From Caldanaerobius polysaccharolyticus DSM 13641 (GTDB lineage: Bacteria > Bacillota > Thermoanaerobacteria > Thermoanaerobacterales > Caldanaerobiaceae), in assembly GCF_000427425.1 (NCBI RefSeq), contig NZ_KE386494.1, positions 460,545-524,544 of the forward strand: a stretch of 64,000 bases of DNA. Reading direction: 5' to 3'. A model generated the notes under the pieces. The model made no database searches. It saw only the letters and a program-made list of their open reading frames with translations, and was not told where the DNA came from. The position numbers were made by a program, and so were the translations under genes. Shown one piece after another: positions 18,790-59,262 of this stretch. Position 1 is the first letter of the stretch. Every line of letters starts with the position of its first letter.

Positions 18790-20124
<1,335 letters not shown>

Positions 20125-27086: not shown

Positions 27087-27111
27087 AATTTCAGCCCTCC
27101 TATTATAAAAA

Positions 27112-27174: not shown

Positions 27175-27207
27175 TCTATGCTTTTCTAATTTTGTTTCAA
27201 TTATAGC

Positions 27208-27236: not shown

Positions 27237-27264
27237 AAGTATTAATATTTCTTTCTTTTTTCCT

Positions 27265-28485: not shown

Positions 28486-28541
28486 AATATTTGCCCCCTA
28501 CAAAAACAGAAACCAAAAACCCCACCGTTTTAAAGCCTTGA

Positions 28542-29654: not shown

Positions 29655-29689
29655 ACTGGTCACTCCTTTTATAAAAATATATAAAAATA

Positions 29690-43042: not shown

Positions 43043-43663
43043 TTACTTAAGGGCGTTTTGTAACTGGCGTATCCTTTCTCCAACCAAATCGAGGTTGTCA
43101 AAATCCACACCTTTTGTCAGATAACCACCCACTCCTACTGCATAAGCTCCGCTGTCAAACCACTCCTTTATATTTTTGTCGTTAACGCCGCCAGTAGGCA
43201 TTATTTCTATAAACGGGAAAGGGCCTTTTAATGCTTTTATCGCCGCAGGTCCGTAAAGCTCTCCCGGAAACAGCTTTACTATGTCCACACCTAACCTATA
43301 TGCGCGAAACACCTCTGTAGGCGTAACTCCAGCCATAGAGCACAAAACGCCTTTATTGCTTATAAATTCCGCCACCTCACTTATTATACAAGGCGAAACC
43401 ACAAAATCAGCTCCGCTTTCCACCGCCTCCTTCGCCTGCTGTACATTAATGACAGTGCCGGCCCCAATTATCTTATCAGGATATTGGGCTTTCAATCTTT
43501 TTATAAGCTCACCAGCGCCTTTAACCGTATACGTCACTTCCACTGCTCCAATTCCGTTTTCAATAGCTTCACGGCAAATATTCCATGCTAGCTCCTGATC
43601 ATCGCACCTTATCACTGCGATGATCTTTCCTTTTAATTGCTTTTTTACCGTTAACTTATCCAC
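43043..43663 (-). CDS. eda: KDPG/KHG aldolase
   Basis: About 206 residues from GTG 43663 (AGGGGAAGG upstream). A class-I aldolase TIM barrel: KIIAVIRCDD, AIENGIGAVEVTYTVKG, IGAGTVINVQQAKEAVESGADFVVSP, and VDIVKLFPGELYGP with the Schiff-base Lys. It cleaves 2-keto-3-deoxy-6-phosphogluconate or 2-keto-4-hydroxyglutarate to pyruvate plus an aldehyde. As the last gene of the 43-54 kb sugar locus, it suggests the pathway passes through a 2-keto-3-deoxy acid. It overlaps the previous gene by 8 nt. Confidence 0.92.
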   Translation of the reverse strand: MDKLTVKKQLKGKIIAVIRCDDQELAWNICREAIENGIGAVEVTYTVKGAGELIKRLKAQYPDKIIGAGTVINVQQAKEAVESGADFVVSPCIISEVAEFISNKGVLCSMAGVTPTEVFRAYRLGVDIVKLFPGELYGPAAIKALKGPFPFIEIMPTGGVNDKNIKEWFDSGAYAVGVGGYLTKGVDFDNLDLVGERIRQLQNALK

Positions 43664-44885
43664 GGCTGTCACCTTCCCCTCCGTATTTCCTGAACTCCCT
43701 ATAACCACTCAACTTAAAAGGCTTAGACCTTACAGCCCATGAAACCCCGATTTCAGAAAACAACTTTTTCTCAGAGCTTGCTTTATCTATTATTTCTTCT
43801 ATGTCTTTTATGTAGGTAACTACGCTTTCCCCTTCTCTCTGGACTATTATACAATCATCGGGAATTTCGACAACGCTGTCACAGGATTCAAAAGCCCCGT
43901 TGGATGCCAAGACAAAATTGCGCGTAATATCAACCGGACAATAGAGTTGTTCTCTTTCAAATAGAGATTTTACCATATTTACATACATATTTTCAAATAA
44001 ATCTTCATATCCGAAATTAAAGCTTTCCTCGTTGCCATCCGAAAATTTTACCTTCAACACATTACTGTAATCCCAATACGCTTCGCCTTCAGTTCCCTTA
44101 AGGAGTATAAACGGAGTCTCCTGTTGAGGGTTACACAATGTGGTATAGTACATAACCTCAATGCCTGCCTGCGTGATAATGCGCACGCATGCCGTATCTT
44201 CGCTCTCTATCCTGTGACCGTGGTACAATTCAGCAGTCACCTCTTCTGGCACCCCGCCGCCATCAGTGGAGGCAGCAGCCAGTATGAGCAGGTTATTGAG
44301 AAGATGGGACAGCGGGTTGTTTATAGTGCCGTCGAGAACATAATGGCCGTTAAACTTAAGCTTGCCAGCCCAAGGTGTTCTCTGGTAATACGCTTCATCC
44401 CTTTTCCACTTCCCTACACCCACCAGGCTTTTAAGTCTTCCAAAGCGCCCTTCAGTCACATAATCTACAAGTCTTCTAAACGCCTTTCCTGAAGTGTTTT
44501 GAAAATCCACAGCGCAGATCCTACCTGTTTTTTTGCTGACGTCAATGATCTTATCCACATCTTGAATCGTTACAGAAGGCGGCTTTTCTAAAAGCACATT
44601 AAATCCTTTTTCCATAGCGTGAACAGCCATAGGGCTGTGCAAATGAATAGGAGTGGATAGCACTACAAAATCCAGATCGCTCTCCTTGTCCAACATCTCC
44701 TGGTAATCCACGTAATAACGAGCGCCTTTTGACTTTAATCGCTCTATCTCATCTTTGTTTTTCTCATAGTTTATCTCTGAAAAAGCTTTAAATTCAATAT
44801 ATCTACCCTCCAACTTTTGGATAGTTTTCAAATGAGTCTTTCCAAAGCCACTGATGCCAACCAGACCAATCCTCGCCACTTTCAT
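43656..44885 (-). CDS. Gfo/Idh/MocA-family dehydrogenase
   Basis: 409 residues. Rossmann start RIGLVGISGFGKTHLKTI, then VLLEKPPSVTIQDVDKIID with the family's EKP Lys (about residue 98), and a C-terminal domain with GHYVLDGTINNPLSHLLNNLL, where a catalytic His is expected. It oxidises or reduces a sugar-type hydroxyl using NAD(P). It differs from the 330-residue relative at 3724. Neighbours on both sides (aldolase, Zn-alcohol dehydrogenase) suggest consecutive steps on one substrate. RBS AGGGGGAAC precedes the ATG. Confidence 0.85.
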   Translation of the reverse strand: MKVARIGLVGISGFGKTHLKTIQKLEGRYIEFKAFSEINYEKNKDEIERLKSKGARYYVDYQEMLDKESDLDFVVLSTPIHLHSPMAVHAMEKGFNVLLEKPPSVTIQDVDKIIDVSKKTGRICAVDFQNTSGKAFRRLVDYVTEGRFGRLKSLVGVGKWKRDEAYYQRTPWAGKLKFNGHYVLDGTINNPLSHLLNNLLILAAASTDGGGVPEEVTAELYHGHRIESEDTACVRIITQAGIEVMYYTTLCNPQQETPFILLKGTEGEAYWDYSNVLKVKFSDGNEESFNFGYEDLFENMYVNMVKSLFEREQLYCPVDITRNFVLASNGAFESCDSVVEIPDDCIIVQREGESVVTYIKDIEEIIDKASSEKKLFSEIGVSWAVRSKPFKLSGYREFRKYGGEGDSRG

Positions 44886-44902
44886 TTCAGTTCCCCCTTT
44901 GT

Positions 44903-45991
44903 CTATGGTATTAACACTGATTTAATGGTCTCCCTATTCTCCATGGCGCTCAAAGCTTTATTTGCATCCTCAAGATCGTACCTGTCTGTAACCAACAGCT
45001 CAAACTTTTCAATGTTACTCAACACCATATTTACGGCCATATTAAGGTGCTTTGTATCGCTCACCCATACACCCTGGTACCTCAGGTTTTTTCTCACGAT
45101 GTCATAATAACAGTCAATGGTCACCGTCCCATTAGGATCTCCAAAACCCACTGAAAGGTACGTACCACCATTCCTCACCAGTTTTATACCTTCCTGAACC
45201 GCTAATGGGTGCCCTACTGCTTCTACAGCCACGTCAACGCCCCTGCCTGACGTGATGTCTAATATCAGTTGTCTGCGCTCTTCTTGAGTGGTACTATACC
45301 TATCCAGCACCACATCGGCGCCAAATACCCTACACATATCTAAGCGTTCCTTTGTACCGCCTATTACTATGACCTTTCTCGCCCCCCTAGCTTTTGCAAA
45401 GGCGACGGCAAACAGCCCTATAGGACCAGGCCCTTGAACCAATACGCTGTCGCCTATATCAGGCGATAACATGTCAAAAGCGTGAGCTGTAGTCGCACCT
45501 GAGCAGGACGCTGATACCAAAACGGCCGGATCAACTTTATCCTTTATTTTTATAACCTTAGTCCCTGGGGCCAGATACACGTACTGAGAATAACACCCTC
45601 TCAAGTAGGGCATCTCTTTACATGTGGTGCTTATACCATACGTCCAGCGGTTTTCGCATAAGGCCGGCTCTCTTTTTACGGCGCAATAATAACACTTCCC
45701 GCACGTAACACCTCTATCCCATATGACCACATCTCCCTCTTTAATCGCTTCTCCGTTTACATCCACCCACGGCTCTGATAATTCGACCACCTGCCCTACC
45801 CCTTCGTGGCCTAGTATCATGGGAAGGTTCAACCGCGGGTCATTGCCTTTCCACATGTGCACGTCAGAACCACAAACACCAGCAGCTAAAATTTTAACAA
45901 GCATTTCTCCGCGGGGCGGATCCACAACGTCAAATTCCCTTTTTACCAATGGCTTATTGTACTCTTCTAAAACCATAGCATATGCTTTCAT
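44903..45991 (-). CDS. Zinc-dependent medium-chain alcohol dehydrogenase
   Basis: 362 residues of the sorbitol/threonine dehydrogenase-like group. Catalytic zinc region CGSDVHMWKG and GHEGVGQVVE, structural zinc cysteines CGKCYYCAVKREPALC, NAD-binding GPGPIGLFAVAFAKARGA. It likely oxidises a secondary alcohol of a sugar or sugar acid. The ATG overlaps the flavoprotein stop by 4 nt (ATGA) and has AGGAGGTGG upstream, indicating coupling. The substrate is not recognisable. Confidence 0.88.
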   Translation of the reverse strand: MKAYAMVLEEYNKPLVKREFDVVDPPRGEMLVKILAAGVCGSDVHMWKGNDPRLNLPMILGHEGVGQVVELSEPWVDVNGEAIKEGDVVIWDRGVTCGKCYYCAVKREPALCENRWTYGISTTCKEMPYLRGCYSQYVYLAPGTKVIKIKDKVDPAVLVSASCSGATTAHAFDMLSPDIGDSVLVQGPGPIGLFAVAFAKARGARKVIVIGGTKERLDMCRVFGADVVLDRYSTTQEERRQLILDITSGRGVDVAVEAVGHPLAVQEGIKLVRNGGTYLSVGFGDPNGTVTIDCYYDIVRKNLRYQGVWVSDTKHLNMAVNMVLSNIEKFELLVTDRYDLEDANKALSAMENRETIKSVLIP

Positions 45992-47760
45992 AGAACCACC
46001 TCCTTTGGCCTTATAGGCTGCTTTTCCTCTACAACTACTTGATCATTGCAAACATCGTATCTACATACAAAATAACCTCTCAATCCTTTATCCCTTGGCA
46101 AAGGATCTGAATTAAAATCGTTAAAGCAAAGATGAGGTCCTCTGCTTTCTTTTCTATGCAGTGCAGACTTTAACACAGCCTCTGCGGTAAGCAACATGTT
46201 TTTAAACCCAACGACATCTTTTGCAGTTTGTGCCCTAAGCTTTTGCCGTTTTAAGTACGCCACGCGGTCTAATGCCTCTTCCAAGCCCTTTTCTGTCCTT
46301 ATGACACTACAGCACCTGTCCATAACTTCTCTGAGCTCCCTTACAGCTTCTTCAACAATAAGGCCTCTTTCTGACAACCAATTGTTATAGGAACTAAAGA
46401 TGTTTTTGGCTATATTTATGGCATTTTCAGAGTAACAACAATCGATTGCATAATCTGCTGCACTCTCCCCTGAAATTTTGCCGAATACCTGGCAGTCTAA
46501 AAGGGAATTCCCGCCAGGGCGATTAGCTCCATGTTGCCCCCCAGCGCATTCTCCCGCTGCAAATAAACCCTTTATATTTGTTTCGGCTTTGCAGCGAATT
46601 TTTATACCGCCTTGGAAATGTTGAATAGCAGGAGCTATTTCAAGCCAATCCCTTTTTATGTCAACACCTCTTGCCTTTAACCATCTGATTGACTGGGGAT
46701 TAATCTCTTCAAGCCTATCGTACGGGCATAAACGGCCAACAACAGCTTTGACTTCCTGCTCATACCTGTGTTTAAAATCCTCTCTCAAAAGATCAAAGCT
46801 AAATCCTTCAGGGTCTCGGGTGAAGTCCAGGTACACCTTATGGCCTCGATGTATTTCTCGGTAAACCGCTATATCTATTATGCTGGTCTTGTGTTCGGCG
46901 CTCACAGGCCACGTAGAACCTTTCTCAAAAATGTCGTTAAAGCCCACATGATACTCCTTAAGAAATTCCTCTCCTCTTTCATTGACAAATCGGGGGACCG
47001 CCCTCATCATACTCCCAGAGCAGGCAAGACCTGTGTCCACCGATGAAAGCCCTATCTGTATAAATTCCATATTTACCAGCTCGGCACCGGCTCTTAAAGC
47101 CATAGCGTACCCATCGCCTGTCATACCAGGAGGGAAAACATTGACTTTATACACACTCCCTCCTCCTCCTGTGGCCATCACTACAGATTTTGCCTTTATT
47201 ATGATCTCTTCGCCTCCAGCATAGCCTACAGCACCGTACACCTGTCCGTCATCCACTATCAAGTCGGTAATCATGGTGTTTTGCAACACAGTTACATCTG
47301 TTTCCTCCAGTTTTTTTATAAGGGCCTGTTCTATGTGTATCGCCGTCTCAGGGCCTGTAAAACAAGCTCTGGGATAAGCCGAGCCATCAGTGATAAACTG
47401 AACAGGTACGCCGTTCTCTTTTACAAACGGCACACCCAATCGGTCAAGATAATAAAACGCCTCAGCTGAGTTTCGCGCCAGTATCTCCGCGAGATCGTAA
47501 TCAGATACAAACCCTCCTATCTCATATATGTCCTTAGCATGGTACTTCCAGTTGTCCGGTCCCCCGGGAAAGGTGGTAGGAAGGGTAGCGTGAAAAGCCA
47601 TCCTGTCAGAACAGGCCAATGCCGTGGTACCGCAATACCCCAGTTTGCCTTTGACAGCCATTATTACCTTAACCCCGCGATGCCTTTCATGGGCTGCCAG
47701 AGCACTTCTCAAGGCCGCCCCACCTCCACCTATCACAAGTACATCCGTGTCGTATACCAT
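45988..47760 (-). CDS. Fumarate-reductase/succinate-dehydrogenase-like flavoprotein
   Basis: About 590 residues from ATG 47760 (GGAGG upstream; a longer frame starts inside the previous gene). FAD-binding VLVIGGGGAALRSALAAHE, then KLGYCGTTALACSDRMAFH, VVMATGGGGSVYKVNVFPPGMTGDGYAMALRAGAELVNMEFIQ, and GLFAAGECAGGQHGANRPGGNSLLDCQVFG, the class signature around the covalent or tightly bound FAD. No SdhB or SdhC genes accompany it. Instead it follows a ferredoxin-containing DHOD-like protein by 7 nt, a plausible electron partner. It may reduce or oxidise a C-C bond of a sugar-derived acid. AprA in this window is a distant relative. Confidence 0.85.
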   Translation of the reverse strand: MVYDTDVLVIGGGGAALRSALAAHERHRGVKVIMAVKGKLGYCGTTALACSDRMAFHATLPTTFPGGPDNWKYHAKDIYEIGGFVSDYDLAEILARNSAEAFYYLDRLGVPFVKENGVPVQFITDGSAYPRACFTGPETAIHIEQALIKKLEETDVTVLQNTMITDLIVDDGQVYGAVGYAGGEEIIIKAKSVVMATGGGGSVYKVNVFPPGMTGDGYAMALRAGAELVNMEFIQIGLSSVDTGLACSGSMMRAVPRFVNERGEEFLKEYHVGFNDIFEKGSTWPVSAEHKTSIIDIAVYREIHRGHKVYLDFTRDPEGFSFDLLREDFKHRYEQEVKAVVGRLCPYDRLEEINPQSIRWLKARGVDIKRDWLEIAPAIQHFQGGIKIRCKAETNIKGLFAAGECAGGQHGANRPGGNSLLDCQVFGKISGESAADYAIDCCYSENAINIAKNIFSSYNNWLSERGLIVEEAVRELREVMDRCCSVIRTEKGLEEALDRVAYLKRQKLRAQTAKDVVGFKNMLLTAEAVLKSALHRKESRGPHLCFNDFNSDPLPRDKGLRGYFVCRYDVCNDQVVVEEKQPIRPKEVVL

Positions 47761-47767
47761 ACCTTTT

Positions 47768-48901
47768 CTACCTCCTGACCATAGAGATGGCTTTAGCAGG
47801 ACAGATTTCGGCGCACAGTCCACACCCGTCGCACTTATCGTTTACGGAGTACTTTTCATCTGCGTCAATCCCATCGTAAATACATACCCGCGCGCAGAGC
47901 CCGCAGGAAGTACACCTGATCATGTCGATTTCTGCCTTTGCCCACTGAGTTCTATCCACCTCATCCATGCTCTTAATCCTGCTACATATTTTACCTTTAA
48001 ACTCGCTTATAGAGCTGTAACCTTTGCTCTCCATGAACTTTTCAATCCCTTTATTGATCCTGTTGATTACCTGATAACCATTCAGTATTATCACACTGCA
48101 GATTTGCACAGTTCCTGCCCCAGCCAGGATATACTTTACTGCATCCTCCCCGTTCATAACGCCACCACTACCGCTTATATCACATCTTATGTGAGGGGAT
48201 ACCGCGCTAATCCAGCGCAAAGAAAACATTATAGACCATGGGCCCCCGTGTCCGGCATAGCCGCCATGCAGTACAGGGACTTCTTTTTCCACGTCTATGT
48301 CAAGGCCCGTAAACCTGTTAAACATCACCAGCCCATCAGCACCAGCCTGATCAAGCCTTAAAGCATCTGAGCCTGGATTGGTTGACTGGGGAGTCATCTT
48401 GGGTATAACAGGTATCTTAACGGCGTTTTTCATAAGTTTGGTGGTGGCAACCATGGACTTTATTACGTCTATACCCGACATTAAGTGTACGCCGTGAGGA
48501 CAAGATAGGTTAAGTTCAATAGCGTCAGCTCCAGCCTGTTCCACGAGCTTGCCGTACTTTATCCAGGCCTCATCTGTATAGCAGTTAATACTGGCTATAA
48601 CCGGAATACTCAGCTGGCTTTTAGCCCTGTAAATGAACTCAGCGTATTCTTCCGGGCCGTACTCGCTGGCTTGTTCATAAGAATAAAGGGTCGTAGAACC
48701 GCTGTGCTTTATAACTTTAAATCTCGGCGTAGGTGAAACCCTGCATATCTCTTTTTGAAAAAGGCTCTTTGTGACTACAGCCCCTATGCCGTTGTCTTCC
48801 GCCTTTTTTAGCCTCTCTACCGTCCCTGTAATACCAGCTGCAGCGGCAATCAAAGGCGATCTCAGTTTTAACCCCGCGTATGTCGTCGACAAATCGACCA
48901 T
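47768..48901 (-). CDS. Dihydroorotate/dihydropyrimidine dehydrogenase-like iron-sulfur flavoprotein
   Basis: 377 residues: an FMN barrel (LRSPLIAAAAGITGTVERLKKAEDNGIGAVVTKSL, ELNLSCPHGVHLMSGIDVIKSM, DISGSGGVMNGEDAVKYILAGAG) and a C-terminal pair of [4Fe-4S] motifs (CTSCGLCARVC, CDGCGLCAEICPAKAI). Same domain order as the PreA-like protein at 20242 but clearly divergent, and in a sugar rather than pyrimidine context. A pyrimidine substrate is therefore doubtful; it may feed electrons to the adjacent flavoprotein. RBS AAGGGGGAAG precedes the ATG. Confidence 0.82.
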   Translation of the reverse strand: MVDLSTTYAGLKLRSPLIAAAAGITGTVERLKKAEDNGIGAVVTKSLFQKEICRVSPTPRFKVIKHSGSTTLYSYEQASEYGPEEYAEFIYRAKSQLSIPVIASINCYTDEAWIKYGKLVEQAGADAIELNLSCPHGVHLMSGIDVIKSMVATTKLMKNAVKIPVIPKMTPQSTNPGSDALRLDQAGADGLVMFNRFTGLDIDVEKEVPVLHGGYAGHGGPWSIMFSLRWISAVSPHIRCDISGSGGVMNGEDAVKYILAGAGTVQICSVIILNGYQVINRINKGIEKFMESKGYSSISEFKGKICSRIKSMDEVDRTQWAKAEIDMIRCTSCGLCARVCIYDGIDADEKYSVNDKCDGCGLCAEICPAKAISMVRR

Positions 48902-48925
48902 ATTGCCTTCCCCCTTTTAACGTTT

Positions 48926-49906
48926 CTACCTTACAGACTTTCTTATAACCAGCTCAGGCTTTATTACCCTTGGACGCACGCTTTCCCTGTTAATGAGCTT
49001 TAAAAGCATGGAAAATGCTTCAGCGCCCATTTCACGCACAGGTTGGGAAACCGTCGTAAGAGGCGGATCCACGTATGCCGCCATATCCAGGTCGTCAAAT
49101 CCCATAATCGATATATCCTCTGGCACTCTAAACCCCCTACTTTTTACAGCCCTCATCGCTGCTATGGCCATGGGGTCACTGGCGGCAAATATGGCATCCG
49201 GCCTGTCACCGTCCAGCAAACTGTACAAAGTTTTTTCTGCTTCCTCCATTGTATTTATGTTCTCTATCGCCCTCCCGCAATTACAATCTATACCACGTTG
49301 TTTCACAGCGTCCAGATACCCGGAAAGCCTATCGCTATACAGGCTTAAGCGAGTATCGCCGCACAGAAACCATATTCGCCTGTGCCCTCTCTGCCATAAG
49401 TATTCTACAGCCATTTTCGCGCCTTCATAGTTGTCCAGCGTGACGCTGTGTAGGGCATTGGGATATTTTCTGACCAGCAACACAACAGGGAATCTACTTT
49501 TTTCCAAATCCTCAATGTGATCATAACGGTCCTTTACCGTAGCAAAAATTAATCCATCAACCCACCTTTCCTTTAATTTTTCTACATAGTCCATCTCTAT
49601 AGATAGGTTCTCGTCGGTATTGCAGAGAAAAACGGTATAGCCATTTTTTCTAGCCTCATCTTCCACACCTTTTGCAATAGCTGGAAACAAAGGATTGCAT
49701 ATATTGGGTATTATCAACCCTACTGTATTGGTCTTACCTTCTTTAAGCCCTTTGGCAAGGATATTGGGTTTAAAGTCAAGCTCCTTTATCGCTTCCATAA
49801 TCCTCTGCTTGGTCTCAAACTTAACAGGAGCCCTGCCGCTTAGAGCTCTTGATACAGTGCTGGGCGAAACACCTGCTCTTTTGGCTACATCAATAATCGT
49901 GGGCAC
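48926..49906 (-). CDS. LacI-family transcriptional regulator
   Basis: 326 residues from GTG 49906. The N-terminal helix-turn-helix TIIDVAKRAGVSPSTVSRALSG is followed by the hinge helix and a periplasmic-binding-like sensor domain (TVGLIIPNICNPLFPAIAKGVEDEARKNGY, DGLIFATVKD, ISIMGFDDLDMAAYVDPPLTTVSQP). It probably represses the sugar genes around it, and an exact-type operator lies 36 nt upstream of its start (49942-49955), implying autoregulation. Confidence 0.92.
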   Translation of the reverse strand: MPTIIDVAKRAGVSPSTVSRALSGRAPVKFETKQRIMEAIKELDFKPNILAKGLKEGKTNTVGLIIPNICNPLFPAIAKGVEDEARKNGYTVFLCNTDENLSIEMDYVEKLKERWVDGLIFATVKDRYDHIEDLEKSRFPVVLLVRKYPNALHSVTLDNYEGAKMAVEYLWQRGHRRIWFLCGDTRLSLYSDRLSGYLDAVKQRGIDCNCGRAIENINTMEEAEKTLYSLLDGDRPDAIFAASDPMAIAAMRAVKSRGFRVPEDISIMGFDDLDMAAYVDPPLTTVSQPVREMGAEAFSMLLKLINRESVRPRVIKPELVIRKSVR

Positions 49907-49941
49907 ATCCTCACCCCCATCCTATTATTGACTCAACTTTT

Positions 49942-49955
49942 TACAATCGATTGCA
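49942..49955. promoter_or_regulatory. LacI-type operator
   Basis: TACAATCGATTGCA, a 14-bp near-palindrome with central CG, the layout bound by LacI/GalR/CcpA-class proteins. It lies in the 54-nt gap between the glycosidase-like gene and the lacI-type gene, so it can control the regulator and the five genes downstream. Confidence 0.7.
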
Positions 49956-49960
49956 TTTTA

Positions 49961-52900
49961 TTAAAATATATCACAATACGCATTTTTATCATAATCAAAA
50001 TATTGGCCTTCAAAAAGTCCCAATAGAGTCGTAGTGACCACAAGCTCCACCGTATTCTTGCCTTCCTTAAGCCAACTTTTATTCACATCCCATATATACG
50101 GATGCCAGCTCTTTGCGCCAGCCCAGTGGCCGTTTATATAAAGGGATGCTGAAGCCTGAAATCTCTCATCCTCTATGCAAATAACCATATTCGACAGTTC
50201 ACCGGCGCTTAATTCCACTCCCTTCCTATACACCACATCCCCTGCGTAAAAGGGAATTCCACAGGCTTTCAGGTCGCCTATTTTCCCCTGGGGCTGAGCA
50301 TCTTTTAAAACAAAGAGATCATCTAGTTTAAAGACTCCAAAATCTCCAAAAATGTACAAAGGATTGACGAGCCCATCGCTGGTCTTTTGGGTTTTTACCT
50401 TGACAGTAATCTCATTGATCCCCTTGCGCACACAGGATGTTATATCCGCAGCCATGTTTGTAGGAAGGTAAAAAAACGCCTTATTAAAATCCTGCGGTCT
50501 TATCGCATTGCCATTTACTCCAATTTCCCATTGACCCATTATGCTCCCCGGTTCCATCACCAAGAATAGCTTTACATCTTTCTCTAACTTAAATCTATGC
50601 TTATACATAACCTCTAATGACGGAAACCTGAGCTTGCTAGGGCAGCCAAACGCCTCGGAAGTGTAGATAGGCAGTCTTGCTCTGCACATACCTATCTGAT
50701 CAATAATGGGCATACACCCCACGTTAAAAGGACCGCATCTAAGCTCTTGGCCTTCTACTTTTTCAATGTACATATCCCATTTATTCATAAGAAGGGCATT
50801 TTCACTTTTGACTTCCACTTCCCACATCTCGTCGATGTCAATGACTTTTACATTCCTCTTTACACATTCTTTTGCAAACTCAGCCGAGCTTTGCTGTGCA
50901 CCCTCTTTAAGCACAAATAATTTTGATTCAAAGGGCGACATCTCTACATTGTAACGAATAACACCCCCTTTTTCGTCACATTTTAACTGTATAAATTTCT
51001 CAAATCCTATATCAAATTCCCAAACCCCTGGAGTGGAATACCTTTCGTTTCTTACGCTTACGCCTGCTTTTATTTTTTTATCCGACGTGTTGATGACAAA
51101 ATAGCAGTCTTCGCCTCTATACAAAAGGTGCAGTGCTTTAATCTCCCTTATTATTTGACCATCAGATGTAATCTCTATGTCCCTTTCAACGATTTTTTCT
51201 AAAACAGAAGGCACTTTTTCCACATCTTTTACAAAATAAACGGTGCCTCTTTCTAAAATATCAGGTACTTTCTCCTGACCGAGCACGTAGCTATCGTAGA
51301 TCTTCTTGGCCTCAAAGCCCACCATGGCGCTAAATCTCTTATCTAAATCATTCATATTCCCTACTTTCTCAATAGGCATACATCCCGCTGTTATTAAAAT
51401 GCCCCTCTGTTCAGTGTACTCAAGGATCTTTTTAACCGCTTCCTCTTCCAGATTAAGCATAGGCGGGAGTATTATCACATCAAATTTATCTTCGTTAATC
51501 AAAATTTCGCCATCCTTCACATCGCCCTCGGCCAGCAGCTGTGGATCGATTATGTAAAAATCATAAAAATTATCCATGAGAACATTTTGCAGCTTTGAAA
51601 AGTCTTCTTTTAACCGCTCTTTAGTATCCCCTTTGTCTGCCGATGCTGTCCACTGACTCGTCACCGGATCAACCAACAGTATTCTGACGACTCTTTTTGC
51701 GTCGCCTATAAGCTTGCCAAGGGCTTTGACATAATTTGATAGAGCTGCGCCGTGTTTCCACCAGGGCATTTGATAAAACGACGAAGGCGGTGCGTCGTGT
51801 TTTTTAAGGCTGTCCGTGGTGTAGAAAAAAGCATGAGGTACAAAGAAATTTATACCTTGAAAACCAAGCCAATCATACGTCCACTTCATGTCCTGAATAG
51901 TCATTCCCCAGCCAATGCTGTGAAAGCATTCACACAGCGCTCTTTCTTTCCCATAAAAGTGCGCAGCAGAAGAAACCAGTTTAGCATTTGCCCGGTAGTT
52001 TGAATTGGCCAGATCAGGTTTGCACCCCGCTTTCAAATGACCTGTATCGATACCCGGTATGTCAATATACTTAAGCTGGCTGCTCCTGAGAATGGGCTTC
52101 TCCGCCACATACAAAAGATTATTATCGTGGCACCATCTCTGTATCTGGACATCATAGTTTTGTATAAACGTATTGACCACTGTATTCCAATAATCAAATC
52201 GCACCTTGTCAGCATGCTCTCCTCTTCCATCTACCAGTACAGGCAATACGTCCACAAGGGAATAACCGTAATTTTTATAAAAAATATCAGGGAGCACAGG
52301 CGACCAAGGATACTTGCCTATAAGGCCTATTTCATCAGAAAATATTCCTTTTATCGTCTTGCCAAATTCATCTCCCAGGTATTTTTTATACCTCTCGTGG
52401 GTCTCCTGTATAAAGTACACCACAGCATCGCGATTTAGCGGATCTATAAAAGTGTCGTAGTATTTAAAATTGTGAATGACTTCTTCTGTGAAAACATAAA
52501 GTTTATAAGATCCTGGTGGAACTTTCCACACCAGCTTATTTGAACAATCCCCTGCGAAATACCTTTTCCTATTGTAAGCAGTAAGCCCGCTCATCTGAAA
52601 AATATCTTCTCTGCGAACAATACCTATGGATTCCGAAAGGTCAATTTTTGCGCTAAAGTCAACTTTCCCGCCAACCATCGGATAGGCACCTGCACTTATA
52701 ACCCTTCCCCACCCCAGTTCTAACTCCACCGTATCAGGACCTGTGATTTCTAACACCTTAACTTTTAACTCTTTTGCTGTAACCTCCGGATGATTGAGCA
52801 TAACTACACCCCCTGCGGCGCCGCTGGGATATGGATATTCGTCGTACAGCCATACCTCGAGATTTTCTTTTTTAGCTTCTTCTACAGCCACAGATACTTT

Positions 52901-53083
52901 ATAAAACCATTCGCTCGACAGATAAGGGATAGTAAGGCCCTGCCTAGGATGTATAAAAAAACCTCCAACACCCTTATCAGCCATTTCCCGTACCTGCCTC
53001 TTTATCTCGCTATCATCCATATCGCCGTTCCAAAACCAGAAAGGTTTATAACCATAATTAATCAACATCTTTCTGCTATTCAC
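49961..53083 (-). CDS. Large glycoside-hydrolase-like protein (GH106-like, tentative)
   Basis: 1040 residues, start GTG 53083 (AAAGGGGTAG upstream), no signal peptide. The N-terminus (KPFWFWNGDMDDSEIKRQV, GGFFIHPRQGLTIPYLS, VWLYDEYPYPSGAAGG) resembles the TIM-barrel start of large bacterial proteins related to GH106 alpha-L-rhamnosidases. FSDEIGL near 250 offers an acidic candidate. The C-terminal 250 residues look like a beta-sandwich sugar-binding domain (MEPGSIMGQWEIGVNGNAI, LYINGHWAGAKSW). Family placement is from memory of the motifs and unsure. It likely removes a terminal sugar from imported oligosaccharide. Confidence 0.65.
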   Translation of the reverse strand: MNSRKMLINYGYKPFWFWNGDMDDSEIKRQVREMADKGVGGFFIHPRQGLTIPYLSSEWFYKVSVAVEEAKKENLEVWLYDEYPYPSGAAGGVVMLNHPEVTAKELKVKVLEITGPDTVELELGWGRVISAGAYPMVGGKVDFSAKIDLSESIGIVRREDIFQMSGLTAYNRKRYFAGDCSNKLVWKVPPGSYKLYVFTEEVIHNFKYYDTFIDPLNRDAVVYFIQETHERYKKYLGDEFGKTIKGIFSDEIGLIGKYPWSPVLPDIFYKNYGYSLVDVLPVLVDGRGEHADKVRFDYWNTVVNTFIQNYDVQIQRWCHDNNLLYVAEKPILRSSQLKYIDIPGIDTGHLKAGCKPDLANSNYRANAKLVSSAAHFYGKERALCECFHSIGWGMTIQDMKWTYDWLGFQGINFFVPHAFFYTTDSLKKHDAPPSSFYQMPWWKHGAALSNYVKALGKLIGDAKRVVRILLVDPVTSQWTASADKGDTKERLKEDFSKLQNVLMDNFYDFYIIDPQLLAEGDVKDGEILINEDKFDVIILPPMLNLEEEAVKKILEYTEQRGILITAGCMPIEKVGNMNDLDKRFSAMVGFEAKKIYDSYVLGQEKVPDILERGTVYFVKDVEKVPSVLEKIVERDIEITSDGQIIREIKALHLLYRGEDCYFVINTSDKKIKAGVSVRNERYSTPGVWEFDIGFEKFIQLKCDEKGGVIRYNVEMSPFESKLFVLKEGAQQSSAEFAKECVKRNVKVIDIDEMWEVEVKSENALLMNKWDMYIEKVEGQELRCGPFNVGCMPIIDQIGMCRARLPIYTSEAFGCPSKLRFPSLEVMYKHRFKLEKDVKLFLVMEPGSIMGQWEIGVNGNAIRPQDFNKAFFYLPTNMAADITSCVRKGINEITVKVKTQKTSDGLVNPLYIFGDFGVFKLDDLFVLKDAQPQGKIGDLKACGIPFYAGDVVYRKGVELSAGELSNMVICIEDERFQASASLYINGHWAGAKSWHPYIWDVNKSWLKEGKNTVELVVTTTLLGLFEGQYFDYDKNAYCDIF

Positions 53084-53116
53084 CTGATTTTTCTACCCCT
53101 TTCTCTTTAAATGCAA

Positions 53117-53155
53117 TTTTGTCATAGAAGCCCTCTAAAGACCTCTATGACAAAA
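53117..53155. repeat. 12-bp perfect inverted repeat before the glycosidase gene
   Basis: TTTTGTCATAGA (53117-53128) and TCTATGACAAAA (53144-53155) form a perfect stem with a 15-nt loop between the isomerase stop (53177) and the glycosidase start (53083), both on the minus strand. A run of T (TCGTTTTTT) follows only on the plus strand. For minus-strand transcription it is a hairpin without a clean U-tract, so it may be an mRNA-stability element, weak terminator or operator. Confidence 0.6.
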
Positions 53156-53176
53156 TCGTTTTTTATAAACACACTG

Positions 53177-53998
53177 TCATGATTTCAAGTTTGCAAAATA
53201 TTTTTTTGCATAACGTATATATTCTTCTAATGCTATTTTAGGTTCTTCCAGCTCAGGATGCCATTTTTTCTCCCACTCAAGGGATAGCCAGCCTTCATAC
53301 CCATTTTGACTCAACAATTCAACGCATCTAGTCACAGGCACATCCCCTTTTCCTACCATGCACAATCTGGCATCTCTTCCCCATCCTAAAGAATCCTTTA
53401 TATGGGTATGTTTAATGTAGCCCTTAAGCCTCGCATAAGTTTGTTCTACCGGCTCTTTAAATGTCTTGTAAGGATGGTTTATATCCCAAAGCACCCCAAC
53501 AGAATCACAATCCACTTTTTCCAGGACTTTAAGTAATCTATCTGTGCGCGCAAAATCCCCGTGAGTCTCTATAAGCACGCTCACCCCCTTGTCCTTTGCG
53601 TAAACGCCCAATTCAGACAAGGCATCGGCTACCATGTCAATTATTTCACTTTCATCCTGCCCCTCAGGCACGTTATTGCCAAATACCCTTATATAAGGCA
53701 CTTCCATCTGGTAGGCCAGATCTACGGCATCCTTGCCTTCCTGCAAATATGTGCTGTATGTGGATCTATCGTGAAATACACACGAAGTGTCAAGGCAACA
53801 TATCGCCAGACCTCTTTCTTTTAACAATCGCTTTGTATGGGAAAGATTGTGAGGCAGAAAAGGTCTGGCCCTGTTCAGGTACATCTCTCCTTCTACTCCT
53901 CTTATTTCTATACCGTCGTATCCTAGCCGCGAGGCCTCATCTAAAATCCTTTCCCAGGGCCAATCGGGACATGAAAGAGTCGTAAAGGATATTTTCAT
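53177..53998 (-). CDS. Sugar phosphate isomerase/epimerase-like TIM-barrel protein
   Basis: 273 residues of the xylose-isomerase-like (AP endonuclease 2) family: FTTLSCPDWPWERILDEASRLGYDGIEIRG, then metal-ligand positions in VLIETHGDF, VGVLWDINHPYKT, YIKHTHIKDSLG and WLSLEWEKKWHPELEEP. Members include hydroxypyruvate isomerase, inosose dehydratase and ketose 3-epimerases. Together with the Gfo/Idh dehydrogenases of this locus it suggests oxidation and epimerisation of a sugar. It lies between the solute-binding protein and the glycosidase. Confidence 0.85.
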   Translation of the reverse strand: MKISFTTLSCPDWPWERILDEASRLGYDGIEIRGVEGEMYLNRARPFLPHNLSHTKRLLKERGLAICCLDTSCVFHDRSTYSTYLQEGKDAVDLAYQMEVPYIRVFGNNVPEGQDESEIIDMVADALSELGVYAKDKGVSVLIETHGDFARTDRLLKVLEKVDCDSVGVLWDINHPYKTFKEPVEQTYARLKGYIKHTHIKDSLGWGRDARLCMVGKGDVPVTRCVELLSQNGYEGWLSLEWEKKWHPELEEPKIALEEYIRYAKKYFANLKS

Positions 53999-54029: not shown

Positions 54030-55679
54030 CTATGGCCTCTTATTGTACCTTTCCAGTGCTGCGTTCTCTATCTTTATTGCTTCATCAATGCCCATGCCTT
54101 TTATCGTATTAACGTACTTGTTCCATGTGCTGTCATTGATAGGCTCTTTGCCCATTATAAATTTAGCCATCATTTCTTGTTGATACGTGTTAATCTGATT
54201 CATTATAGATGCCAACCTTTGGCTTTCCTCTTGAGTGGGCGTTATAGGCGGTATACAAAGGGAAGGATCTGCATTTAACCAGGTATTGAACGCTGCATCT
54301 TTCTGCTGCTGATATGTCAACATTTGTTCAAAGTACCTCTTATCTTGATTAAACGCTGCATTAACAGGTGCGGGAGCCCATTGAGCCAGAGCCTGATCTT
54401 GAGATAATCCATTTGGATTTTTAAAAATTATATCTGTATACTTAGGATAACCATTAACCATTTTATAGCTCTGCCCTTCAATGCCAAAATTCAGTAGCAT
54501 ATGGCCTTCTTCGCTGTACCCGTAATCAAGCCATTGCACTGTCTCTTTTACGTGCTTATTCTTGGAACTTATGGCAACACCCTCACCATACGCAGATTTG
54601 CGATTTAAATCCGTAGTAGTATATTGTTTACCTGCTGGGCCAATAGGCCATGGCGCACCTACAAGATCAAAATTTGGTTGCTTTGGTTTCATCAAATTTA
54701 AATATCTACCCATATTACCTATAATTAAACCAAAATACGAACCAGCTAAATTATTCGTGACTTTATAATCAAAAGCTTTTCCATCAGTTGTAGCTATATC
54801 CTGGTCTATCAGCTTCTCTTTATACCACTGAGCCATAGTCTTTAGAAAATCCCTGTAAGCTGGTTGCATAGGTCCGTAATTGACCTTTCCATTGTCCATG
54901 TAAAAGCCATTTAATATTCCCCAGGCAGCAGCAAAATTGCCCAAAGTCGATATGCCAGTTCCCGTAAACGGCACTTCATCTCTTTTCCCATTTCCATTAG
55001 GGTCTTTATCCCTGAATACCACCAACACATTGTGCCAATCCTCTATAGTCTTTGGCACCTGCAATCCTAACTTGTCCAGCCAGTCTTTTCTTAACTGTGG
55101 CCCATAATTAGAATTCATTATAGCTCCGTCGGTACGTATGAAAGGAAACATATATAATGTTCCATCGTCTAACTCCACTTGTTTCCTTACATCAGGATTT
55201 TCTTCTAGTATCTTTTTGAGATTTGGAGCATACTTATCAATTAAATCATTTAATTTTATAATTGAACCATCATTTATCGCTTTTGCCGGCCCTCCAGGAA
55301 TACCCTGCCAGCCATAGTATATCATATCCGGTAAATCATTGGACGCCATCATTAAATTGAATTGCTCATTTTCCTGACCCATTGGAGGATGTAAAAATTT
55401 TATGTGTATTCCTGTACGCCTTTCCATTTCTTGATAAGCTTTTTCCTCACCAAAATCTTTCATAGTAGCTGCCCTTTTGGGATCCATAGGTGCCCAATAC
55501 GTCAATGTAATAGGCTCTTTAACTATGGGAAGCTTTATCTCTGTTATCCTATCGCTTTCACCGCTCTTAGCAGAAGGGCTTTTCTCACCGCTCGATGACT
55601 GCTTGCTGCCACACGCCGTAAAAACTGAAAGGGTGAACACAAAACATAATAGTACAATTAAAATCTTTTTCAATCTCAT
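54030..55679 (-). CDS. ABC transporter solute-binding lipoprotein (second copy)
   Basis: About 549 residues from ATG 55679 (AAAGGAG upstream; the longer frame starts 8 codons earlier). The signal peptide ends in VFTAC, a lipobox. The mature part has LTYWAPMDPKRAATMKDFGEEKAYQEMERRTGIHIKF, the shape of the large LplA-type oligosaccharide-binding proteins used with YtcP/LplB/LplC-type permeases. It is closely similar along its whole length to the adjacent protein at 55726 (nearly identical C-terminus INTYQQEMMAKFIMGKEPIND), so the pair is a tandem duplication. Confidence 0.9.
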   Translation of the reverse strand: MRLKKILIVLLCFVFTLSVFTACGSKQSSSGEKSPSAKSGESDRITEIKLPIVKEPITLTYWAPMDPKRAATMKDFGEEKAYQEMERRTGIHIKFLHPPMGQENEQFNLMMASNDLPDMIYYGWQGIPGGPAKAINDGSIIKLNDLIDKYAPNLKKILEENPDVRKQVELDDGTLYMFPFIRTDGAIMNSNYGPQLRKDWLDKLGLQVPKTIEDWHNVLVVFRDKDPNGNGKRDEVPFTGTGISTLGNFAAAWGILNGFYMDNGKVNYGPMQPAYRDFLKTMAQWYKEKLIDQDIATTDGKAFDYKVTNNLAGSYFGLIIGNMGRYLNLMKPKQPNFDLVGAPWPIGPAGKQYTTTDLNRKSAYGEGVAISSKNKHVKETVQWLDYGYSEEGHMLLNFGIEGQSYKMVNGYPKYTDIIFKNPNGLSQDQALAQWAPAPVNAAFNQDKRYFEQMLTYQQQKDAAFNTWLNADPSLCIPPITPTQEESQRLASIMNQINTYQQEMMAKFIMGKEPINDSTWNKYVNTIKGMGIDEAIKIENAALERYNKRP

Positions 55680-55725
55680 ATGGTATCTCTCCTTTATGTG
55701 CATTATTACTATTTATCCATAATTT

Positions 55726-57387
55726 TTATGGCCTCTTATTGTACCTTTCCAGTGCTGCGTTCTCGATTTTTATTGCTTCATCTATGCCCATGCCTTTTAT
55801 CGTGTTTACGTATTTACTCCATGTGCTGTCATTAATCGTCTCTTTGCCCATTATAAACTTACCCATCATTTCCTGTTGATACGTGTTGATTTGATTCATT
55901 ATGGAAGCAAGTCTTTGACTTTCTTCTTGAGTAGGCATTATGGGCGGTAATGCAAGAGACGTATCTACATTTAACCATGCATTCATCGCTGCATCTTTCT
56001 GTTGTTGAGTTCTTAACATCTGCTCATAGTACCTCTTATCCTGATCCATAGGACCGTTGGATATTGAAATAGCCCATTGTGCTAAAGCCTGATCAGGAGC
56101 CAAACCATCGGGATTTTTAAAAATTACATCTGTAAAGGTAGGATAACCATTGACCATTTTATAGCTCTGTCCCTCAATACCAAAATTAAGGAGCATATGG
56201 CCTTCTTCGCTGTACCCGTAATCAAGCCATTGCACTGTCTCTTTTAAATGCTTATTCTTGGAACTTATGGCAGCTCCGTAGCTAAACCCTTTAATGTCTA
56301 AATACGCAGTAGTATAAGCTTTACCCGCAGGGCCCACAGGCCATGGAGCACCGACCAGATCAAAAGTTGGCTGTTTTTGCTTCATAAGAGACAGGTACCT
56401 GCCCATGTTGCCCATAACCGCACCAAAATACGAACCTGCAAGATTATTTGTAATCTTATAATCAAAAGCCTTATTGTCGTTGGTAGCTATATCCTGGTCT
56501 ATGAGCTTTTCCTTATACCACTGAGCCATAGTCTTTAGAAAATCCCTGTAAGCTGGTTGTATAGGCCCGTAATTGACCTTTCCATTGTCCATGTAAAAGC
56601 CATTTAATATACCCCAAGCTGGCGCAAAATTGCCCAAATCCATTATACCCTGACCATTAGAGCCTCTACCTGTGAAAGGTATCTCGTCCTTTTTCCCATT
56701 GCCATTGGGATCTTTATCTCTAAATGCTACCAGCACGTTGTACCAATCATCTATGGTCTTGGGGACCTGTAGACTCAACTTGTCCAGCCAGTCTTTTCTA
56801 AACTGCGGGCCTGAATTAGCATTTATCGGAGCACCTGCACTGCGTATATATGGAAACGCGTATATCGTGCCATCGTCCAGCTCCACCTGCTTTCTTATAT
56901 CAGGGTTTTCTTGAAGTATCTTTCTGAGATTAGGGGCATATTTCTCTATGAGATCATTTAATTTTATAATGGAGCCATCGTTTAGAGCCTTTGCCGGTCC
57001 TCCAGAAACACTGCCCCAGTTGTAATATATGATATCTGGCAGATCGTTGGACGCCATCATCAAATTAAACTGATCGCTTTCCTGACCTATTGGTGGATGC
57101 AAAAACTTTATGTGAATCCCTGTACGCTTTTCTATCTCCTGATAAGCTTTTATTCCATTATAATCCTTCATAGTAGCTGACATCTTTGCATCCATAGGCA
57201 CCCAATACGTCAACGTAAGCGGCTCTTTAACTATTGGAAGCTTTATCTCCGTTATCTTATCGCTTTCACCGCTCTTGGCAGAAGAGCTCTTACCGCCGCT
57301 TGATGACTGCTTGCTGCTACACGCCGTAAACACTGAAAGTGTGAAAATTACACACAACGCTATAATTAACGCTCTTTTAATCTTCAT
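55726..57387 (-). CDS. ABC transporter solute-binding lipoprotein (first copy)
   Basis: About 553 residues from ATG 57387 (AGGGGGAGA upstream; a GTG two codons earlier is too close to it). Lipobox VFTAC follows the signal peptide. It binds an oligosaccharide outside the cell for the permease pair just upstream. The differences from the second copy cluster in the middle (for example SAGAPINANSGPQFRKDW against TDGAIMNSNYGPQLRKDW), so the two may prefer different glycans. No ATPase gene is present; a shared MsmX-type ATPase elsewhere is likely. Confidence 0.9.
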   Translation of the reverse strand: MKIKRALIIALCVIFTLSVFTACSSKQSSSGGKSSSAKSGESDKITEIKLPIVKEPLTLTYWVPMDAKMSATMKDYNGIKAYQEIEKRTGIHIKFLHPPIGQESDQFNLMMASNDLPDIIYYNWGSVSGGPAKALNDGSIIKLNDLIEKYAPNLRKILQENPDIRKQVELDDGTIYAFPYIRSAGAPINANSGPQFRKDWLDKLSLQVPKTIDDWYNVLVAFRDKDPNGNGKKDEIPFTGRGSNGQGIMDLGNFAPAWGILNGFYMDNGKVNYGPIQPAYRDFLKTMAQWYKEKLIDQDIATNDNKAFDYKITNNLAGSYFGAVMGNMGRYLSLMKQKQPTFDLVGAPWPVGPAGKAYTTAYLDIKGFSYGAAISSKNKHLKETVQWLDYGYSEEGHMLLNFGIEGQSYKMVNGYPTFTDVIFKNPDGLAPDQALAQWAISISNGPMDQDKRYYEQMLRTQQQKDAAMNAWLNVDTSLALPPIMPTQEESQRLASIMNQINTYQQEMMGKFIMGKETINDSTWSKYVNTIKGMGIDEAIKIENAALERYNKRP

Positions 57388-57417
57388 TTGCACATCTCCC
57401 CCTCTTTGCTTTTTTCT

Positions 57418-58296
57418 TTACTCTTTTATCGCTCCTATCATTACTCCCTTTACGAAGTACTTCTGTATAAACGGGTATATCAGCAATATAGGTACTGTTG
57501 ATACAACCACCGTAGCGTACTTCACGTTCTCGCTGATCGGCAGTGTATCCTGCACTATACCCGTCGTCATGGAATCCGTGCTATTGGCTATAAGTATGTC
57601 CCTCAACACCAGCTGTATGGGATATAAGCTCTTATCCCTCAGGTATATCAGCGCATTGAAAAAGTTGTTCCAGTGCCCTACACCGTAAAACAGTATCATC
57701 ACCGCTACCACCGGCATGGACAGCGGTATCACTATCCTGAACAATATGGTAAAGTCGTTGGCTCCGTCTAACCTCGCCGACTCTATCAGGCTGTCAGGTA
57801 TACCCTGAAACGCCGTCCTCATTATTATCAGGTTCCACACGCTTATGGCTCCGGGTATTATCATCGCCCACATGGTGTTCACCATGTTCAGGCTTTTTAC
57901 CAGCAAAAACGTAGGTATCAACCCACCATGAAAGAACATAGTAAAAGCTATTATAAACATGAATACGTCTCTTCCGTACAGGTCTTTCCTGGATAAGGCA
58001 TACGCACCTAACGACGTCAGCAATATGTTTAATGTGGTACCCGCTACCACGTATATGAGGGTATTCTTGTACCCTATCGCTATCATCTCGTTCTTGAACA
58101 CCATCCCGTATGCCCCTAATTGAAAGCCTTTGGGCCACAAGAGTATGGACCCGCTCTGCATGACTTTTACGGGATCACTCACTGACGCAAATACCACGTA
58201 CAGAAAGGGATACAACGTAACTACCGTGATTATAAATAATATCAACGCATTCACCGCATCAAATATTGTCTCCCCCACACTCTGCTTTATCTTCAA
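57418..58296 (-). CDS. Carbohydrate ABC transporter permease (LplC/YtcP-like)
   Basis: A 292-residue membrane protein with six hydrophobic segments. The EAA-type loop (SARLDGANDFTILFRIVIPLSMPVVAVM, about 185-212) contacts the ATPase. The ending FIQKYFVKGVMIGAIKE is typical of this permease family. The start is a TTG at 58296 with GAGGGGGTG upstream. It pairs with the permease gene 12 nt upstream. Confidence 0.92.
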   Translation of the reverse strand: MKIKQSVGETIFDAVNALILFIITVVTLYPFLYVVFASVSDPVKVMQSGSILLWPKGFQLGAYGMVFKNEMIAIGYKNTLIYVVAGTTLNILLTSLGAYALSRKDLYGRDVFMFIIAFTMFFHGGLIPTFLLVKSLNMVNTMWAMIIPGAISVWNLIIMRTAFQGIPDSLIESARLDGANDFTILFRIVIPLSMPVVAVMILFYGVGHWNNFFNALIYLRDKSLYPIQLVLRDILIANSTDSMTTGIVQDTLPISENVKYATVVVSTVPILLIYPFIQKYFVKGVMIGAIKE

Positions 58297-58308
58297 GCTT
58301 TCACCCCC

Positions 58309-59262
58309 TCACCACAGGCTGTTCTCGGTCAGCATCCTGCTTATCTTGTTGACCACGATAACTAAAATAAAGCTTATCACTGAGTTAAACAGACCCACTG
58401 CTGTGGAGTAGCTGTAGTCCATCATCAGTATTCCTTGCCTGTACACAAAAGTGGATATCACGTCTGCCGTGTCGTAAATAGTAGGATTGTATATGAGGAT
58501 GATTTTCTGGAAATCCGCTGACATTATGGCGCCAAACCTCAGTATGAGCATTATAACTATCGTGGGCAGTATACCAGGCAGTGTGACGTGTATCATCTGT
58601 TTCCACCTTCCTGCCCCGTCTATCTTAGCCGCTTCATAAAGCTGGGGATCTATGTTGGACAGTGCTGCCAGGTATATTATTGAGCCCCATCCTACACCCT
58701 GCCATATACCTGACCCTACGTATATGGTCCTGAACCACTGGGGCATGGTCATAAAGGGTATTCTCTGCAATCCCAGCATGGCCAGTATATCGTTTATCAG
58801 TCCATCCCTGGATGTAAACTCCAGTATTATGCCTGCTATTACCACGATGGATATGAAATGGGGCAGATAGCTTATGGTCTGCACCGTGCGCTTGTAGATC
58901 TGGTTTTTTACTTCGTTTAGGAGCAAGGCCAGTATTATAGGTGCAGGAAAGCCAAATATAATATCGTACACGTTAAGCAAGATGGTGTTTCGCAAAAGCC
59001 TCCAAAAGTAATAGCTGTGGAAGAACGCATTGAAATGGCTAAAGCCAGCCCAGGGACTTCCCAGTATGCCTTTTGCAGGGCTGAAGTTTTTAAAGGCGAT
59101 TATAGCACCGTACATGGGGACGTAATTGAATATGATGAAGTAAGTCAATACCGGCAGCAGCATAATGTAGACGTATTTGTTTTTGTACCACTGCTTTTTG
59201 AGGAACTTCAGGCGCTGGGCTGTTGTAACAGACTGCTTAGTTGTGGAAACCTTTGCCTCCAT
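58309..59262 (-). CDS. Carbohydrate ABC transporter permease (LplB-like)
   Basis: 317 residues. The N-terminal basic segment (LKKQWYKNKYVYIMLLPVLTYFIIFNYVPMYG) is typical of LplB-type permeases, followed by about six membrane segments and the EAA loop (AAKIDGAGRWKQMIHVTLPGILPTIVIMLIL). First gene of the transporter operon, RBS GAGAGGAGGT. The preceding gap holds a promoter and a small hairpin. Confidence 0.92.
   Translation of the reverse strand: MEAKVSTTKQSVTTAQRLKFLKKQWYKNKYVYIMLLPVLTYFIIFNYVPMYGAIIAFKNFSPAKGILGSPWAGFSHFNAFFHSYYFWRLLRNTILLNVYDIIFGFPAPIILALLLNEVKNQIYKRTVQTISYLPHFISIVVIAGIILEFTSRDGLINDILAMLGLQRIPFMTMPQWFRTIYVGSGIWQGVGWGSIIYLAALSNIDPQLYEAAKIDGAGRWKQMIHVTLPGILPTIVIMLILRFGAIMSADFQKIILIYNPTIYDTADVISTFVYRQGILMMDYSYSTAVGLFNSVISFILVIVVNKISRMLTENSLW

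Follow-up and report, generated by a model that had tools for sequence, protein, structure and literature searches.

A window of 64,000 nucleotides from Caldanaerobius polysaccharolyticus DSM 13641 (genome of 2.5 Mb, assembly 96% complete) carries a sugar-related locus with two adjacent flavoprotein genes, one product resembling dihydroorotate dehydrogenase (DHOD) and the other the fumarate reductase flavoprotein FrdA. A preliminary description had placed eight genes of this locus on the minus strand; the list of open reading frames, together with Pfam and NCBIfam profile searches, puts all eight there and backs each assignment (Table 1). The 7-nt gap that it gave between the two flavoprotein genes also holds, because the start codon of the FrdA-like gene is the ATG at 47760 (a longer reading frame, starting at 47823, was set aside) and the DHOD-like gene has its stop at 47768. 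At the other end of the locus, the aldolase start codon is most likely GTG 43663. Finally, the LacI regulator was rightly described with an operator: a near-perfect palindrome that matches the LacI-type site without mismatch lies ahead of lacI, and the window holds five operator-like sites at two mismatches or fewer, compared to 0.57 expected.

Table 1. Features of the locus and of the genes upstream of it (window positions)
Feature	Position	Strand	Basis or remark
KDPG/KHG-type aldolase (kdgA)	43043..43663	-	PF01081, E 1e-43; TIGR01182 above cut-off
Gfo/Idh/MocA oxidoreductase (Gfo)	43656..44885	-	PF01408
Zn-dependent alcohol dehydrogenase (Zn-ADH), threonine/idonate/inosose dehydrogenase group	44903..45991	-	PF08240/PF00107; core gene
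FrdA-like flavin adenine dinucleotide (FAD) protein	45988..47760	-	PF00890 (FAD_binding_2) / PF02910 (Succ_DH_flav_C)
Second operator-like palindrome, inside the FrdA-like gene	46437..46450	strand-neutral	1 mismatch
DHOD/PreA-like flavin mononucleotide (FMN) TIM barrel with C-terminal 2x[4Fe-4S] domain	47768..48901	-	PF01180 (DHO_dh) + Fer4
LacI-family regulator	48926..49906	-	PF00356/PF13377
Predicted LacI-type operator, ahead of lacI	49942..49955	strand-neutral	perfect match to palindrome TGCAATCGATTGTA
GH106-like glycoside hydrolase, putative alpha-L-rhamnosidase	49961..53083	-	PF17132 (Glyco_hydro_106), E 2e-22
AP_endonuc_2 TIM-barrel sugar isomerase/epimerase-like protein	53177..53998	-	PF01261, E 6e-37
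Sugar ABC transporter, upstream of the TIM-barrel gene	54030..59262	-	open reading frames, identified by sequence
Its two similar solute-binding lipoproteins	54030-55703, 55726-57393	-	by sequence
Its two permeases	57418-58296, 58309-59262	-	by sequence
AraC-type membrane regulator, upstream of the ABC transporter	59462..61735	-	by sequence

The flavoprotein pair and its FMN partners

Of 299 sampled genomes of the phylum, seven encode a close DHOD-like protein (at least 55% identity, full length), and in all seven an FrdA-like gene lies next to its gene, so the co-occurrence that the preliminary description had left to a conserved-neighbourhood search is real. The FrdA-like gene is present in 12 of the 37 genomes of the class, and the DHOD-like/FrdA-like/Zn-ADH core extends to Thermoanaerobacterium, Mahella-like bacteria, Pseudothermotoga and Dictyoglomus. 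At the class loci inspected, the genes follow the order DHOD-FrdA-ADH-Gfo (the contig of the same-genus genome stops after ADH); one class genome has two copies, and in T. saccharolyticum NTOU1 one DHOD copy is broken by a frameshift or a sequencing error. Neighbours were tallied over 80 named FrdA loci taken from a genome-wide scan: a Zn-ADH homolog is found at 45 of them, KDG kinase (KdgK) at 27, an Old Yellow Enzyme (OYE)-type protein at 24, a related LacI at 20, KDPG aldolase (KdgA) at 18, DHOD at 13 and a DHOD-PreT fusion at 4. The distance to FrdA is at most 150 nt for DHOD at 21 of 23 DHOD loci and for ADH in 40 of 55 cases. Judged from these arrangements, the pairing of the flavoproteins is genuine and recurs as one functional unit.

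The identity of the FMN partner varies. In Moorella, Caldicoprobacter and deltaproteobacteria an OYE-type protein (PF00724) stands in place of the DHOD-like partner, a replacement seen in about half of the paired clusters, and in Aerophobetes the partner is a DHOD-PreT fusion resembling dihydropyrimidine dehydrogenase (DPD) (locus L047 provides an example of the fused homolog). LacI homologs at 44-56% occur within the OYE-type clusters. Among paired members, the partner type switches at least four times on the FrdA tree, a quick tree whose deep forks are uncertain. Every OYE partner (28/28) carries a 4Fe-4S-type motif, CxxCxxC-x11-12-C, and 21 of 23 DHOD partners carry two CxxCxxCxxxC motifs, the exceptions being one truncated gene and one single-motif protein. 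What stays constant across loci is an FMN barrel, an Fe-S site and an FrdA-type FAD protein, usually with ADH, which argues for functional coupling of both flavins. If true, the exchange of different FMN partners for a single FAD protein would clearly illustrate how flavoenzymes evolve by modules. The preliminary description had suggested electrons to or from ferredoxin: passage through Fe-S sites is plausible, but a soluble ferredoxin is not necessarily involved, because the partners' own Fe-S sites could pass electrons directly to the FAD of the FrdA-like protein.

Of the enzymes that the preliminary description joined in one locus, the TIM barrel, GH106 and Gfo are accessory and lie outside the conserved core. 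Gfo is the fourth gene of the core operon within the class; in most FrdA clusters Gfo and the TIM barrel vary or are missing, while KdgK and KdgA turn up repeatedly. The two occur together in the window, and their joint conservation with the core was not seen at other loci; in the same-genus genome (L081) the TIM barrel at the core locus differs from that of the window. Homologs of the GH106-like protein (41-71% identity) adjoin the same core operon in L081, L042, L043 and L085, and a sequence search of the PDB gave no match to it, i.e. no solved relative. A further PDB search found only distant relatives of the TIM-barrel protein, a candidate non-orthologous uronate isomerase, or eliminase.

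Two further observations concern these families. Another Gfo/Idh gene (window 3724-4716) lies beside a GH38 alpha-mannosidase, about 40 kb from the flavoprotein operon, and its close relatives adjoin the DHOD-FrdA operon in L041-L043. In L095 (8474-11359), a distant DHOD (32%) and FrdA-like (36%) pair lies beside UbiD-like and RraA-like genes, which suggests that the flavoprotein pairing is used on other substrates too.

Active sites of the two flavoproteins

The catalytic residues of E. coli FrdA are His232, Arg287, His355 and Arg390. We compared the FrdA-like protein with E. coli FrdA and NadB, and surveyed the corresponding positions in 83 homologs. In all of them the catalytic histidines are swapped, Gly237 replacing His232/233 and Gln380 replacing His355/356, and the histidine that binds FAD covalently is absent from the family. 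R414, the equivalent of the carboxylate-binding Arg390, is the sole catalytic residue of E. coli FrdA that is clearly retained; Arg253 lies near the position of FrdA Glu245. By contrast with this loss, R53, H57, D125, R253, K280, W284 and Q380 are invariant in the 83 homologs, and the invariance of the key residues across all partner types suggests one substrate class. The AlphaFold2 model (predicted local distance difference test score, pLDDT, of 88) has E. coli FrdA as its top PDB match (TM 0.80). No FrdB-type iron-sulfur partner is encoded beside the FrdA-like gene; the neighbour is instead a DHOD-like or OYE-like FMN protein. Since the catalytic residues are missing in all 83 homologs, an ordinary fumarate reductase or aspartate oxidase is ruled out.

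The DHOD-like protein retains the catalytic cysteine of DPD (NLSCPHG), the proton donor of C=C reductases, along with the FMN lysine, and carries two CxxCxxCxxxC motifs. In the alignment with E. coli PreA, its pyrimidine-binding Asn-Thr pair is replaced by Asn-Arg (NR[FL]TGL) and a GGYAGHGG loop is present. Its model is of lower confidence (68), with DPD as the top Foldseek match. A role in pyrimidine metabolism is ruled out, as the binding residues differ and a separate cluster with a PreA-like protein and a hydantoinase exists at 20242-29663. That cluster is a textbook pyrimidine/hydantoin degradation set (hydantoinase, amidohydrolase, NCS1 permease, aminotransferase and PucR-type regulator), and its own PreA/DHOD-like ferredoxin protein (20242-21450) is a true one. 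From the residues retained and replaced in their active sites, and from the models, both flavoproteins resemble C=C / C-H redox enzymes whose substrate would be carboxylated and oxygenated.

A possible hexuronate branch

Gene content, with several neighbours assigned by eye from sequence, places the recurrent trio and its swappable, Fe-S-bearing FMN partner in a uronate/KDG (2-keto-3-deoxygluconate) setting. UxaC lies near FrdA in L119, L132, L130 and L085, a GH4 enzyme in L085, L151, L154, L159, L199 and L200, a PL1 pectate lyase in L149 and L159, and a GPH-type transporter in L130 and L140, while class-level operons are flanked by GH106, PL26-like and GH2 genes. An exit through KDG is provided by KdgA in the window cluster and by the KdgK and KdgA genes already counted at related loci. 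We therefore propose, with a confidence that stops somewhat short of even, that the DHOD-like/FrdA-like/Zn-ADH trio is an uncharacterised flavin-based hexuronate branch that ends in KDG and replaces, or works alongside, UxaC-UxaB-UxaA/UxuA. Of the substrate proposed earlier, an unsaturated or keto-deoxy sugar acid, the C=C chemistry is supported by the cysteine described above; as to the substrate itself, a hexuronate (galacturonate or glucuronate, possibly O-methylated) fits better than an unspecified deoxy sugar, and the exit is KDG/KDPG.

The classical enzymes were sought by hidden Markov model (HMM) searches of assemblies, for five families. UxaC (PF02614), UxaA and KduI did not turn up in the window's genome, and none of the five was found in the same-genus genome (no full match in the case of UxaA and UxuA) or in two Dictyoglomus metagenome-assembled genomes. 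In two complete Dictyoglomus genomes the gene order is ABC transporter-GH4-x-KdgK-IclR-DHOD-FrdA-ADH. According to the published numbering of D. turgidum, the GH4 alpha-galacturonidase is Dtur_0440, a 'succinate dehydrogenase' Dtur_0445, a threonine aldolase Dtur_0449, a CE4 enzyme Dtur_0450 and a GH16 enzyme Dtur_0451 (PMC5167688). This order agrees gene by gene with the Dictyoglomus locus, from which we infer that the genome compared is that of D. turgidum; FrdA is thus Dtur_0445, and the protein had been counted as respiratory. The authors found no galacturonate route in this organism and could only suggest UDP-sugar epimerases (PMC5167688). UxaC, UxuA and UxaB/UxuB were not found in the 86% of the D. 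turgidum genome covered (1.6 of 1.856 Mb).

Several observations weigh against the proposed hexuronate branch. The window's genome holds a UxuB-UxuA pair away from the cluster, and thus part of the classical route, and KdgK was not located in this genome. Other class genomes with the trio also have UxaC and UxuA, so that the trio is an addition there; a simple replacement of UxaC everywhere is therefore not supported. In D. turgidum, a UxaA-like gene occurs as a split pair among unrelated genes and a weak KduI-like gene adjoins kdgA, so pectate-lyase products may be handled differently. Around many FrdA homologs (Chloroflexi, Planctomycetes) there is no FMN partner and no KDG gene, and the TRAP, Tct or Liv transporters of some clusters do not prove uronate. 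Separately, a rhamnose oxidation pathway was considered and set aside: no lactonase, rhamnonate dehydratase or L-2-keto-3-deoxyrhamnonate (L-KDR) enzymes were recognised in the cluster, and GH106 was retained solely as a supplier.

As to chemistry, we infer the following scheme. A C2-keto uronate would be formed by UxaC where present, else by another isomerase such as the TIM barrel, and the FAD of the FrdA-like protein would oxidise it at C5/C4, beside the carboxylate. Beta-elimination would then expel the C4 hydroxyl (or O-methyl), and the resulting ene-dione would be reduced by the FMN of the DHOD-like (or OYE-like) enzyme, the same electrons returning to the new C=C via the 4Fe-4S clusters. 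The product would be 2,5-diketo-3-deoxygluconate, which is a known product of KduI; Zn-ADH would reduce it to KDG, to be split by KdgK and KdgA. Rhamnose-uronate oligosaccharides would reach the route through GH106 and the ABC transporter. Such a mechanism would make sense of both flavins as well as of the Fe-S relay, the ADH and an exit at KDG, and would tolerate an O-methyl group at C4. In its strict form, a two-flavoprotein complex performing a redox-neutral hexuronate 'dehydration' (FAD oxidation, C4 loss and C=C reduction by a DHOD-, OYE- or DPD-like FMN protein), we hold it to be unlikely; if true, one pathway would serve galacturonate, glucuronate and 4-O-methylglucuronate whatever the configuration or substitution at C4.

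The same machinery might instead serve O-methylated uronates exclusively, chiefly 4-O-methylglucuronate (released from glucuronoxylan and arabinogalactan), the redox detour being there to drive out a methoxy group with which UxuA-type dehydratases cannot cope. We regard this as slightly less probable than the strict scheme. Proteins of the URO-D family, which has the methylcobamide methyltransferase fold, are encoded in or beside many clusters (L081, three times, L087-L089, L091, L127, L137, L155, L164 and L175); in Dictyoglomus (L187, 2430-5036) such a gene directly follows a GH67 alpha-glucuronidase gene, a possible link to 4-O-methylglucuronate, and in bacterium BMS3Bbin03 (L123, 2718-11809) a corrinoid protein, a RACo activator and a MetH-like protein lie beside ADH and FrdA-like genes. 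However, most clusters lack URO-D-like proteins, and the HxC zinc motif of the methyltransferases is missing in most of those checked, which weakens their case as demethylases. GH67 is present in the window's genome, Caldicoprobacter and Dictyoglomus, all without UxaC, but it occurs also in related genomes without the trio, and the Dictyoglomus operon sits with a galacturonidase.

It is less probable again that the trio acts on another sugar acid or a cyclitol (keto-gluconate, idonate or a quinate-like compound), with redox epimerisation before KDG. Clusters L116 and L163 do add an IlvD-type dehydratase, an SDR, a second ADH, an AroE homolog and a TRAP transporter, and deltaproteobacterial clusters contain LarA-like and D-2-hydroxyacid dehydrogenase genes. 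Yet UxaC, GH4, PL1, GH106 and the ABC oligosaccharide transporters would be left unexplained, and the single substrate class suggested by the FrdA residues also speaks against it.

Hardly different in probability, and marginally lower, is deglycosylation by oxidation, elimination, hydration and reduction, in which Gfo would oxidise C3 of a uronide or rhamnoside, the TIM barrel would eliminate the aglycone, and the flavoproteins and ADH would reduce enones. The closest solved relatives of the window's Gfo include 3q2i and a glucuronide-3-dehydrogenase, 8tdi, and the combination of Gfo with AP_endonuc_2 TIM barrels is typical of these routes (PMC7676230, PMC10628242). Both proteins, however, lie outside the conserved core in which KdgK and KdgA recur, and such a pathway does not need the FrdA-like protein. 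Finally, a flavin-based electron-bifurcating or redox-balancing device tied to sugar metabolism, in place of a substrate-transforming step, is very improbable: FAD, FMN and two 4Fe-4S clusters do come together within one predicted complex, but there is no conserved NAD(H)-binding subunit, hydrogenase or ferredoxin partner, and both flavoproteins retain conserved substrate-side residues.

Returning to the hexuronate branch, the conversion of hexuronate to KDG is a known kind of pathway, in which these enzymes would be new as far as the searched literature goes. No such pathway was found in a search made mostly without subscription journals, so that its absence is no proof; one review of hexuronate catabolism contains no word beginning with flavo or fumarate. 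The preliminary description could not name the pathway either, and no characterised one was found in the literature searched. If true, the branch would fill a missing step in anaerobic, often thermophilic degraders of plant biomass: Dictyoglomus, Caldicoprobacter and the window's lineage carry uronidases, yet are without the standard enzymes of uronate breakdown. Genes that now bear the label succinate dehydrogenase or dihydroorotate dehydrogenase would gain an explanation as well, and a single operon would account for what becomes of galacturonate and 4-O-methylglucuronate in anaerobes.

Elsewhere in the window, this plant-polymer degrader has a nitrogenase-like gene set (8949-19928). It comprises nifH/D/K-like pairs and a gene for a NifB-like radical SAM protein, and is accompanied by a molybdate-type ABC transporter. 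An APS-reductase-like flavoprotein (33084-34784) is encoded between ATP sulfurylase and APS kinase genes, and we read these sulfate genes as an assimilatory route with an AprA-type enzyme.

Comparison with known systems

With the fumarate reductase, L-aspartate oxidase and APS reductase family, the FrdA-like protein shares the fold, the FAD domain and one carboxylate-binding arginine (R414); it differs in having no histidine for covalent FAD and in its separate R53-H57-D125-R253-K280-W284 signature. The DHOD-like protein resembles PreA-PreT and DPD in its DHOD-type FMN barrel, two 4Fe-4S clusters, NxSCP catalytic cysteine and relay to an FAD module. Unlike in those systems, the window cluster has no PreT, the FAD partner being FrdA-like and without an NAD site, and the GGYAGHGG loop occurs instead of the pyrimidine-binding Asn-Thr pair. 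The OYE-type partners have the enone reductase fold and the CxxCxxC-x11-12-C motif of OYE proteins with a 4Fe-4S cluster (2,4-dienoyl-CoA reductase, BaiCD type), but lack the fused FAD/NAD domain, and the FrdA-like protein may supply the FAD.

At the level of pathways, the levoglucosan and 3-keto-glycoside oxidation-elimination routes likewise combine a Gfo/Idh/MocA enzyme with a sugar-isomerase-like TIM barrel, whereas they have no flavoprotein pair and no KDG exit. The isomerase pathway (UxaC, UxaB/UxuB, UxaA/UxuA, KdgK and KdgA) would share with the proposed branch its uronate input, its KDG output and its exit through KdgK/KdgA, as well as LacI/IclR-type regulation and nearby uronidases and transporters; the difference would be that two flavoproteins and a Zn-ADH here replace or accompany the isomerase, the reductase and the dehydratase.

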